Below, one piece after another: positions 17,923-32,429 of a DNA stretch of 48,845 nucleotides. Position numbers and translations under genes: made by a program. Every line of letters starts with the position of its first letter. The stretch's first letter is position 1. Source of the DNA: Thermoanaerobaculia bacterium. GTDB taxonomy: Bacteria; Acidobacteriota; Thermoanaerobaculia; UBA5066. The stretch covers positions 1 through 48,845 of the forward strand of contig JAJVIN010000047.1 of NCBI GenBank assembly GCA_022071945.1. The letters run 5' to 3'. Below the pieces are notes generated by a model that saw only the letters and a list, made by a program, of their open reading frames with translations, was not told where the DNA came from and searched no databases.

Positions 17923-19560
17923 CTACCCCTCCGCCTGGAACTCCGCTGAGCGCATCAGCTCCCGGACGAACCGCGGCCGATTGATGTCGTTGGCTCCGAC
18001 CTTGGACGCCCAGAAGGCCGCCCCTTCCGGATCGGCGGGGCGGCCAAGGATCGCAAGGTATGCGGCCTCGACGAAATCGCGAGGGCCCGCCTCGTTCGTC
18101 CTCGAAAGGAGCATTCTCGCCGCTCTTGCCTCGCCGGCGAAGGTCTCCCCCGCTGTCAGCCCTTCGGATTCAGGCTCGATGCCGAGACAGTCGAACAAGA
18201 CCTGTTTGCGGCCCTCGGGCACATCCTGGGGCGGCTCAGAGCGAGCCAGATCCGACAGGAGGGCGCGCACGAGGAGAAGCCGTCCGGCGAAGTGCTGCGA
18301 GAGCGGCCGTGAGTAGTGCGTGAGCGCCTCGGCATCGGGTCCGTGCCCAGCCGCCCCCACAAAGACGCTCCGGAGGAACTCTCCATCCTCGAGTTCCTCC
18401 CCGTCCCGGCACACCGCCAGAGAGATCTCCGTCGACTGGATCCGCCCCGAAACCCGCGGGAAGAACCGCGCCAGACCCTCCGCCACGTACCAGGGAACCT
18501 CAGAAGGAAACGGCCGGACGAAGTTCCGGAACTCGGAGCCCGACAGGACCGACTCGAGCAGAGTCAGCCGCGTCTCGAACCCTTTCTCGAGAATCCCGAG
18601 CTGGAAGGCGAGCGTCTCGGCGGATGGGTCTCCCCCGGTGAGCCGCCTGTACGCGTTCTTCACGAACTCTTCGTCGGAATCCGCCTGGCAGAGCGCGTCG
18701 AGTTCTCCGAGCGCCTCGCGGAGCGGGATCTTGCCGTGAACGACCCTGAAGGCACGGACATGCGGCTCGGCCACGCCCAGGCCCGAGAGGACCAACTCCA
18801 CGGCCACGGGATCGAGGGCCCTCGGGCGCACCCGAACCCGCCCGCTCCCGGGTTTTTGGGCCGTGATCCAGTAGTAGTGCGTCCCCTCGCCCCACTCGTC
18901 GACGATCGAAAGGCCCGTCCCGTCCAGGAGCCCGCGCGCCTCGGCCGTCGTGAACTTCTTCCCGTCGTAGGTTCCTGCGTCCTGCCCCCAAGGCGAGGCC
19001 CCGCGCCCGTCGACCTGGAATCTCAGAACGCCCCCTGGAGCGAGGACCCGTCCCGCCTCGCGCACATACGTTTCTATTGGCTCGACGGCCGGGATGTGCT
19101 GAAAGACGATGTACGAAAAGACGAGATCGAGACTCTCGTCCGCAAGGGGTTGAAGCGTGCCGTCCGTGACCCACGTTCGAGCCCGGGGAAAGTCGTGCAG
19201 GAATGCGGCCGACTTCTCGATCATCAGGGGAGAGATGTCGACACCGTATGCCTCGGCGATTTGTTCCGACAGGGGGGCCAGAAGCCGTCCGACCCCGCAC
19301 CCGATCTCCAGACCGCGAGCGGACGGGTCGAGCTCGATTCCGTCGAGGATCGGGTCGGAGAGCTCGCGGGCTCCCGACTCGCGAAACTCGGCTTCCGAGG
19401 CCGCGCTGCCGCTCGCGATATAGAACTGGTGATCCTCGGAGGCTCGCTTGTCCCAGTCACGCCGCATCTCGTCGGCCAGGGAGAGAGGGGCCTCCTCGAC
19501 CCAGGGAGCCTCGGCCTCGGCCCCCTCGCCCGGCTGTTCGTTGCGTCCGGTTTCCTGCAT
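17923..19560 (-). CDS. SAM-dependent methyltransferase fused to DUF4214 domains
   Basis: A 545-residue protein. After an acidic N-terminus, residues 30-230 are a class I methyltransferase with motif I LEIGCGVGRLLAPLSE, an acidic strand end (AYGVDIS) and FSYIVFQHIPAVEPI further on. Two DUF4214-like helical units follow (EFVKNAYRRLTGGDPSAETL near 280-330; DFVEAAYLAILGRPADPEGA near 490-545), with AEALTHYSRPLSQHF between them. DUF4214 occurs in secreted and surface proteins and in glycan clusters; its role here is unclear. The ATG lies 7 bases from TATCCT and has no Shine-Dalgarno site. The promoter is shared with the VWA gene on the other strand. Confidence 0.88.
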   Translation of the reverse strand: MQETGRNEQPGEGAEAEAPWVEEAPLSLADEMRRDWDKRASEDHQFYIASGSAASEAEFRESGARELSDPILDGIELDPSARGLEIGCGVGRLLAPLSEQIAEAYGVDISPLMIEKSAAFLHDFPRARTWVTDGTLQPLADESLDLVFSYIVFQHIPAVEPIETYVREAGRVLAPGGVLRFQVDGRGASPWGQDAGTYDGKKFTTAEARGLLDGTGLSIVDEWGEGTHYYWITAQKPGSGRVRVRPRALDPVAVELVLSGLGVAEPHVRAFRVVHGKIPLREALGELDALCQADSDEEFVKNAYRRLTGGDPSAETLAFQLGILEKGFETRLTLLESVLSGSEFRNFVRPFPSEVPWYVAEGLARFFPRVSGRIQSTEISLAVCRDGEELEDGEFLRSVFVGAAGHGPDAEALTHYSRPLSQHFAGRLLLVRALLSDLARSEPPQDVPEGRKQVLFDCLGIEPESEGLTAGETFAGEARAARMLLSRTNEAGPRDFVEAAYLAILGRPADPEGAAFWASKVGANDINRPRFVRELMRSAEFQAEG

Positions 19561-19566
19561 GGGTCG

Positions 19567-19573
19567 TAGGATA
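19567..19573. promoter_or_regulatory. Symmetric bidirectional -10 element for two leaderless genes
   Basis: TAGGATA reads TAGGAT on the plus strand (19567-19572) and TATCCT on the minus strand (19573-19568). Each hexamer is followed by exactly 7 bases and a start codon: GTG at 19580 on plus, ATG at 19560 on minus. The element is centred at 19570, exactly midway between the two starts. No Shine-Dalgarno sequence fits between element and start on either side. Confidence 0.65.
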
Positions 19574-19579
19574 AACCGC

Positions 19580-20671
19580 GTGGACTACCGATACGGGCAG
19601 CTTCCCCTCGACCTCCTCCGGTCGCTCCTGACGTTCGAGGAGCTCGTCCGGATGTTCCTGGAGCTCGTCTCGCGGCTGGGGGGCGACGTGGAGGCCGCTC
19701 TGGACGCGATGCGGGAGCTCCAGGAGATGGGCATCATCGGCGAGGACGTCGACCTTTCGGAGTTCCGGCGCATCCTGGAAGAGCGTGGCCTCGTCGGTGA
19801 CGACGGCAAGGGAAACCTCCAGCTTCTCGCCCCCGGGGAGCGCCGCATCCGAAAGGCGGCGCTGGAAGAGATCTTCTCCTCGCTGTCACGGTCCGGTCCG
19901 GGGTTCCACTCGATCCCGCGGCCCGGGTCGAGCATCGAGGTGATGCCGGAAACCCGGAAGTACGAGTTCGGGGACGACATCGCCAGGCTGGACGGCATCC
20001 GGACGGTCGCGAACGCCTCGCGACGCGACCTCGAGGACATCTCGTTGTCGCCGGAAGACTTCGAGGTCTTCGACGTCGAGGACCAGAGCGCCTGCGCGAC
20101 GGCGATTGCCATCGACATCTCGCACTCGATGATCCTGTATGGCGAGGACCGGTTCACTCCCGCCAAGAAAGTCGCCCTCGCCCTGACAGAGCTCATTTTG
20201 GACAAGTACCCGAAGGACACGATCGACATCGTCCTCTTCGGGGACCAGGCCGTTTCGGTCCCCACCGAACACCTCTCCAGGGCGAAGGTCGGTCCCTTCC
20301 ACACCAACACCAAGGCGGGCCTGGCCCTCTGCCGGACTCTCCTGAACAGGCGAAGGTCCCGGAACAAGCAGATCTTCCTCATCACCGACGGGAAGCCCTC
20401 CTGCATCCAGGAAGGCAGCCGTCTGTACAAGAACCCTTTCGGGCTCGATCTGAAGATCGTCAATCGGACGCTCGAGGAGGCCGAGCGCTGCCGCCGCGAG
20501 GAGATCCAGCTGACGACGTTCATGATCGCGACCGACGAGTACCTCGTGAAGTTCGTCGACACGCTGACCAAGGTGGCCCGGGGCCGGGCCTACTACGCCT
20601 CACCGGACGATCTCGGGACCTTCGTCTTCAGGGACTACATCCGGAACCGCAAGAAGCTGTTCCGCGGCTGA
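19580..20671 (+). CDS. VWA-domain protein (Mg-chelatase subunit D/CoxE-like)
   Basis: A 363-residue cytosolic protein. The N-terminal 170 residues are helical. The VWA domain occupies about 170-350: the metal-ion-dependent adhesion site DISHS (DxSxS), a Thr in HTNTKAGLAL, and ITDGKPS complete the site. EDRFTPAKKVALALTELILDKYPKDTIDIVLFGD is typical of partners of MoxR/Mg-chelatase ATPases, so it probably works with the AAA+ protein encoded at 7857-9413. GTG 19580 begins DYRYGQLPLDLLRSLL; the frame stays open upstream but into the promoter. It ends 4 bases before the convergent hydrolase gene. Confidence 0.9.
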   Translation: MDYRYGQLPLDLLRSLLTFEELVRMFLELVSRLGGDVEAALDAMRELQEMGIIGEDVDLSEFRRILEERGLVGDDGKGNLQLLAPGERRIRKAALEEIFSSLSRSGPGFHSIPRPGSSIEVMPETRKYEFGDDIARLDGIRTVANASRRDLEDISLSPEDFEVFDVEDQSACATAIAIDISHSMILYGEDRFTPAKKVALALTELILDKYPKDTIDIVLFGDQAVSVPTEHLSRAKVGPFHTNTKAGLALCRTLLNRRRSRNKQIFLITDGKPSCIQEGSRLYKNPFGLDLKIVNRTLEEAERCRREEIQLTTFMIATDEYLVKFVDTLTKVARGRAYYASPDDLGTFVFRDYIRNRKKLFRG

Positions 20672-31535: not shown

Positions 31536-32429
31536 TTACGGGATATTCACTCGCTCGATGGTTTCCTCGATGACGGCCAGAAACCTCGCGGTTTCCGCGA
31601 CATCGTGAACGCGGACCACGACGGGAGTTCTCGGAGAAACGCGGGCCGCCATCACGACAGCGGCCAGCGATTCCGGGAGCCGGCCGGCCGGTGGTACGCG
31701 CGATGCGGCTCCAAGAAAAGCCTTGCGAGACGCCCCCGCGACGATGACCCTGCCCGGCGGGGCGATCTTTCCAAGATTGGCCAGCAACAAGAAGTTCTCG
31801 TCGGCGCTCTTCCCGAATCCGAATCCAGGGTCTCGCCAGATCTTCTCGGCCGAGACGCCCTCACCGGCGAGCCGCCCCTCGACCGTCTCGAGATCCGCGG
31901 TCACATCCGCCACGACGTTTGCGAAACGCGAGACCGCGAAGGTCGTCGACGGCGTTCCCCGGCAGTGGTTCAGAATCAGAGGAACTCCCGATTCCCTCAC
32001 GAGGGTCACGAGATCGGGGAGAGGATCGAGGCCCGTCACGAGATTCACGATCCGGGCCCCCTCACCCACGGCGGCCCGGGCGACCTCCGGCTTGCGCGTG
32101 TCGATCGAGACGATGGCCTCGGGCCGCTCTGCGAGAATCCCGCGGATTACGGGCAGCACACGGTTCAGCTCTTCCTCCACCGGAATGTCGGACGCCCCTT
32201 CTCCGTAAGTCCCGCTCCTGGGACGTGTCGACTCCCCTCCCACATCCAGGATCGCGGCGCCCTCGTCGAGCAGGCCGAGGGCGTGGGCAACAGCTTTTTC
32301 GGGCTCGAGGAACCGTCCGCCGTCGGAAAACGAGTCGGGGGTGACGTTCACGATCCCCATCACCAGGGGGACAGAACTGAATTGCAGGAAACGGCCGGAG
32401 GACAGAGGAACCGCAAAACCCCGAGACAT
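31536..32429 (-). CDS. folP: Dihydropteroate synthase
   Basis: A 297-residue enzyme that joins p-aminobenzoate to the dihydropterin pyrophosphate in folate synthesis. Family marks: VMGIVNVTPDSFSDGGRF at the pterin site, AAILDVGGESTRPRS, VSIDTRKPEVARAA, NLVTGLDP in place of the usual IND, NHCRGTPSTT (a Met-to-Cys variant of the HMRGTP motif), DPGFGFGKSADEN and IVAGASRKAFLG. ATG 32429 lies 6 bases after TAGGAT; AAGG directly before the ATG is too close to act as a Shine-Dalgarno site. No other folate gene is in the window. The antiporter gene follows in the same orientation. Confidence 0.97.
   Translation of the reverse strand: MSRGFAVPLSSGRFLQFSSVPLVMGIVNVTPDSFSDGGRFLEPEKAVAHALGLLDEGAAILDVGGESTRPRSGTYGEGASDIPVEEELNRVLPVIRGILAERPEAIVSIDTRKPEVARAAVGEGARIVNLVTGLDPLPDLVTLVRESGVPLILNHCRGTPSTTFAVSRFANVVADVTADLETVEGRLAGEGVSAEKIWRDPGFGFGKSADENFLLLANLGKIAPPGRVIVAGASRKAFLGAASRVPPAGRLPESLAAVVMAARVSPRTPVVVRVHDVAETARFLAVIEETIERVNIP

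Follow-up and report, generated by a model that had tools for sequence, protein, structure and literature searches.

How can two genes that are read away from each other be served by an intergenic region of only 19 bp? The question is raised by positions 19561-19579 of the window, by which is meant the whole stretch of 48,845 nucleotides that was analysed; it lies on the contig labelled C22 of the source assembly (6.17 Mb, 69 contigs), and its own genome is designated G000. VWA homologues and a search for relatives put this genome among the Acidobacteriota, in the class Thermoanaerobaculia. A gene on the minus strand (17923..19560, ATG start) encodes a methyltransferase of 545 aa with a C-terminal DUF4214 domain (Pfam Methyltransf_11, 4.6e-18; DUF4214, 6.4e-14). 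The gene on the plus strand (19580..20671, GTG start) encodes a VWA-domain protein of 363 aa, assigned on the basis of Pfam (VWA_2, 4e-9), homologues and coding signal.

Both start codons are backed by homologues and by codon usage. GTG 19580 coincides with the alignment start of VWA homologues from many phyla (column DYRYGELP), and the codon score of the VWA frame was -5.0 for the 44 codons leading up to the GTG and +21.3 for the first 44 downstream of it. An alternative ATG on the plus strand (19559..19561), which overlaps the minus-strand ATG within CATG (19558-19561), was rejected as the VWA start because the homologues begin seven codons later and the codon score from this ATG to the GTG is negative. 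The first 31 codons of the methyltransferase gene scored as coding (mean of 0.25 per codon vs 0.20 for the stretch that follows), a score of -10 was obtained for the 20 codons upstream of ATG 19560, and the N-terminal MQ was also found in both relatives that have the directly divergent pair (G008 and G012). A methyltransferase start at residue 32 (19467) was considered less likely, since the N-terminal stretch scores as coding and G008 and G012 have the MQ start too, together with a -10 element before it.

The plus strand around the gap reads CAT at 19558-19560 (the minus-strand ATG), TAGGATA at 19567-19573 and GTG at 19580-19582. Two putative -10 hexamers, offset by one base, are contained in the TAGGATA core: TAGGAT for the VWA gene (19567-19572, plus strand) and TATCCT for the methyltransferase-DUF4214 gene (19573-19568, minus strand). 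Each agrees with TATAAT in 4 of 6 bases, and the first T of each lies 13 bases before the respective start codon. A sequence-only reading of this DNA had described a perfectly symmetric promoter. Its geometry was confirmed, with exactly 7 bases between each hexamer and its own start codon (ATG 19560 on the minus strand, GTG 19580 on the plus strand) and with position 19570 in the middle of the 19-base gap, midway between the starts. The symmetry holds for the spacing and not for the letters, TAGGAT being set against TATCCT (the reverse complement of TAGGATA is TATCCTA, which makes no palindrome). If the -10 elements are real, there is no room on either side for a leader or a Shine-Dalgarno sequence.

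For starts 19 bp apart, the chance that both strands carry TANNNT at 12-16 bases was 0.3% in random sequence of 66% GC and 0.45% by shuffling of the gap. The full pattern CAY-N6-TANNNTA-N6-RTG occurred once in the 6.17-Mb genome, as did a reversed control. Pattern frequency alone was rejected as proof, the reversed control being equally frequent here and more frequent in many relatives; because the control is equally common, the string by itself is not evidence, and what counts is its position between real starts and its conservation.

We consider it likely, from the sequence, that TAGGATA is a shared -10 element, that is, a bidirectional promoter of the Warman/Grainger kind in a double-leaderless form. 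The opposite-strand hexamers overlap in one core, and base pairs 19568 and 19572 each provide the -11A of one strand and the -7T of the other; this reciprocal pairing, with hexamers one base out of register, is the geometry of the 18-bp form (PMC10268837) and the commonest arrangement in bacterial bidirectional promoters (PMC10268837). In a consensus scan of 19200-19950, no promoter of the sigma-70 type that includes a -35 element was detected. Along with the agreement of both hexamers with TATAAT in only 4 of 6 bases, this speaks against the shared-core reading; bidirectional promoters can be without a -35 (PMC10268837, PMC12825309). The proposal of a promoter core shared by two mirror-placed -10 elements within 7 bp is supported as a prediction.

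The housekeeping RNA polymerase would bind TAGGATA in either orientation. A rightward polymerase would start at or next to G19580 and yield a leaderless VWA mRNA with GUG at its 5' end, and a leftward polymerase would start at or next to A19560 of the minus strand and yield a leaderless methyltransferase-DUF4214 mRNA with AUG at its 5' end. The reciprocal -11A/-7T pairs would place the two start sites 18-20 bp apart, and starts exactly at both start codons would make the first bases purines (G and A). Two polymerases could not occupy TAGGATA together, and at basal rates coupling of the genes would probably be absent. The actual start sites, the leaderless translation and the exclusion of one polymerase by the other are what we infer from the arrangement.

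The use of leaderless initiation was assessed over 1.64 Mb of the window's own genome (1207 genes) by recording the position of TANNNT before candidate starts. A peak was found at 12-16 bases (2.2, 1.6, 0.9, 1.2 and 0.7% of starts, respectively), over a plateau of ~0.45% further upstream and a level of ~0.05% at internal ATG/GTG control codons. The excess at leaderless distance amounts to ~92 starts (~8% of the 1207 genes), which is near the 9.7-19.4% of genes published for three Acidobacteria (PMC3160421). This positional peak is a clear sequence indication that the genome uses leaderless initiation. Both hexamers of the TAGGATA core, at 13 bases, fall inside the peak, and both of them (TAGGAT and TATCCT) rank in the top four hexamers of the leaderless candidate set. 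Together, the start codons, the genome-wide signature and the conservation of a -10 element on each side (see below) agree with the earlier description of the two genes as leaderless, which is retained as predicted. As a separate observation, an A directly after TANNNT was rare among leaderless -10 elements (10/152, 7%, vs a background of ~17%), and symmetric cores look as if they were avoided among those of the 1.64 Mb.

In relatives, TANNNT was found 12-15 bases before the aligned VWA start in 8 of 10 species of the same family (5 of 6 other genera), in the forms TAGCAT, TAGGAT, TATCCT and TATGAT. With a chance of 2.5% per site, this corresponds to p ~6e-8 when counted by genus. The methyltransferase gene is directly divergent from the VWA gene in only two of the relatives, G008 and G012, which belong to one genus, so that conservation on the methyltransferase side is a single observation. 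TATCTT stands 14-15 bases before the methyltransferase ATG-CAG in both and is separate from the TAGCAT of the VWA gene, the gaps measuring 54 bp (G012) and 80 bp (G008). Conservation of the 19-base gap, which had been put forward as a check, was not found in these relatives. Each putative -10 element is conserved, and superposition of the two for this gene pair is seen only in the present genome. In the relatives the two elements are neighbours within a longer gap, so that the superposition resembles an otherwise ordinary divergent leaderless pair in compacted form.

The same data bear on an unlikely alternative, in which TAGGATA serves only the VWA gene, the methyltransferase promoter lies inside the VWA gene and gives an mRNA with a normal leader, and the minus-strand TATCCT is a by-product. 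A TANNNTA core hands the minus strand its TANNNT cheaply, the plus-strand -10 is kept in many more relatives, its minus-strand counterpart being limited to two species of a single genus, and no TANNNT at leaderless distance was evident before the methyltransferase start in other genera, all of which would fit such an arrangement. However, both relatives with the directly divergent pair carry a TATCTT of their own before the methyltransferase, apart from the VWA -10, and the scan of 19200-19950 yielded no better promoter inside the VWA gene. The shared -10 element is the reading that we prefer.

Whether shared cores recur was examined at two scales. The 1.64 Mb contain 187 divergent pairs, of which the pair described here alone has overlapping -10 elements with both at leaderless distance. 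A survey of 60 genomes of the class was made for TANNNTA between CAY and RTG at four spacings, with ATNNNAT as the control core (sampled at 30 loci per spacing); a codon table from one genome was used, the leaderless side comprised two exact spacings and low-GC loci were left out. At leaderless spacing, TANNNTA was placed between two divergent coding starts at 17 sites, 13 of 44 with N5 and 4 of 29 with N6, and at the other spacings at a single site, 0 of 19 with N3 and 1 of 15 with N12; the control core was so placed at none of 58 loci in these genomes. Fisher tests gave p = 0.006 for spacing and 2e-5 for the core, values that treat non-independent species without correction for phylogeny. 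The pairs included ACP phosphodiesterase/M24 peptidase, HrcA/DUF2520, UbiE-type methyltransferase/chorismate-binding enzyme, ThiS-family protein/small protein and SelB-type GTPase/CYTH. Most of their genes are backed by Pfam, the family domain often beginning within the first 11 residues.

A second instance within G000 (C9:134388-134410, locus L252) has the core TACGATA in a 17-bp gap with weaker gene support, its flanks being an AbiEii-like nucleotidyltransferase (weak Pfam match) and an ORF of 107 aa to which no function was assigned. The genes for the UbiE-type methyltransferase and the chorismate-binding enzyme were divergent in 14 of the 14 genomes that had both in reach; the gap ranged from ~10 to ~236 bp, and only one genome had the shared form of exactly 17 bp. 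Taken with the relatives of the VWA gene and its divergent pair, this suggests that divergent leaderless pairs are retained and that their overlap is gained and lost.

Several further sites were recorded in passing. Near the start of the gene for the chorismate-binding enzyme (L392 to L405), ATTGTA or ATTCTA recurs, which reads TACAAT/TAGAAT on the strand of the gene. Elsewhere in the window, a divergent pair with starts at 32429 (minus) and 32494 (plus) has a gap of 64 bp, and each side carries a -10 element at leaderless distance (TAGGAT at 12 bases, TATTCT at 15); by eye, the minus-strand protein resembles dihydropteroate synthase and the plus-strand protein a sensor with beta-propeller repeats. 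In the same genome, at C5:45867-45902 (L191 of G000), a divergent pair with a gap of 35 bp surrounds the palindrome GATGATACGGGTATCATC, in which TATCAT occurs at leaderless distance on both strands and the letters are symmetric too; the plus-strand protein resembles glutamyl-tRNA synthetase and the minus-strand protein an EamA-type transporter (names assigned by eye). In six species of one genus (G024, G030, G033, G036, G051 and G054; loci L213, L215, L218 and L342), CACTTGGAGTAACTTACGRCCCATG is kept upstream of one gene (MEFGAQLSSYRVPW...). It was rejected as a shared-promoter site, as only one side looks like a gene and the other does not have the look of coding sequence.

The sequence-only reading had also held that competition for one element would couple the two genes in an either/or fashion. 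This part was not supported: the overlap is absent from both that have the pair, where the -10 elements are separate, and all five bidirectional promoters tested in E. coli fire too weakly at basal level for competition (PMC12825309). Either/or control is possible, and the conservation data do not favour it. A dedicated switch, in which the overlap would be under selection as a means for either gene, when transcribed, to silence its neighbour, is graded by us as very improbable. Overlapping polymerase sites are mutually exclusive, and in E. coli the divergent RNA can be repressed, though only once the opposite side is strongly activated (PMC12825309). Against this, the overlap of the chorismate-binding/UbiE-type pair is equally unstable (14 of 14 divergent, the 17-bp shared form in one), and no shared function is known for the methyltransferase-DUF4214 and VWA proteins.

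It is scarcely credible that AGGA (19568-19571) is instead the Shine-Dalgarno sequence of a leadered VWA mRNA starting further upstream, with no promoter at TAGGATA: its distance of 8 bases to GTG 19580 is acceptable, but the TAGCAT, TATGAT, TATCCT or TACAAT of relatives keep the letters of TANNNT and not AGGA, and the minus side is left unexplained.

With the shared -10 element as the preferred reading, the locus has a simple rationale: leaderless genes shrink the 5' region to near nothing, so that 17-19 bp with a single -10 in common can be enough for two genes. A wider proposal, which we regard as tentative and rather doubtful, is that such shared -10 elements, lying between leaderless genes arranged head to head, make up a recurrent promoter class under selection in Thermoanaerobaculia, complete in 17-19 bp and imposing competition between polymerases, perhaps with counterparts in other phyla rich in leaderless genes. 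If the class is real, 17-19 bp would hold the complete core promoter and the 5' region of two genes, and few intergenic regulatory regions would be more compact. Such regions would be a clean set of natural cases for testing whether competition of polymerases for a shared -10 affects two mRNAs, and the shared-core pattern would help to annotate the start codons of divergent genes wherever leaderless genes are in use.

Bidirectional promoters were reportedly first described in 2021 by the Warman/Grainger group. Most of the work on them has been done in E. coli and Salmonella, in which leaders are usual and one of the RNAs is often non-coding. The predicted core has in common with them (PMC10268837, PMC12825309) a near-symmetric -10 that would be read on both strands and the reciprocal -7T/-11A, and its start sites would likewise lie ~18 bp apart, with mutually exclusive polymerases. 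Unlike in those promoters, both RNAs are here predicted, from sequence only, to be the flanking mRNAs, beginning at their start codons in a 19-bp intergenic region.

Leaderless genes of Acidobacteria and other phyla (PMC3160421) likewise have TANNNT ~12 bases before the start codon, but that work treats single genes, and the word 'divergent' is absent from it. In the prpD/Rv1129c pair of Mycobacterium tuberculosis (PMC3898074), the genes are also divergent neighbours and both mRNAs were mapped as leaderless; the portion of that report drawn on here terms closely juxtaposed divergent promoters common in M. tuberculosis, and within it no shared -10 is stated and no gap of 17-19 bp is described. 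The csoR-cueA divergon of Bradyrhizobium liaoningense (PMC5057107) also has divergent genes with overlapping -10 elements and a csoR mRNA that starts at AUG. It differs in that cueA has a leader of 42 nt, the promoters have identified -35 elements and the core is covered by a CsoR operator, whereas at the TAGGATA site both sides are predicted to be leaderless and neither an operator nor a -35 was found. On the best reading of the sequence, what may be new here relative to known bidirectional promoters is the double-leaderless form, of a type that is itself already known.
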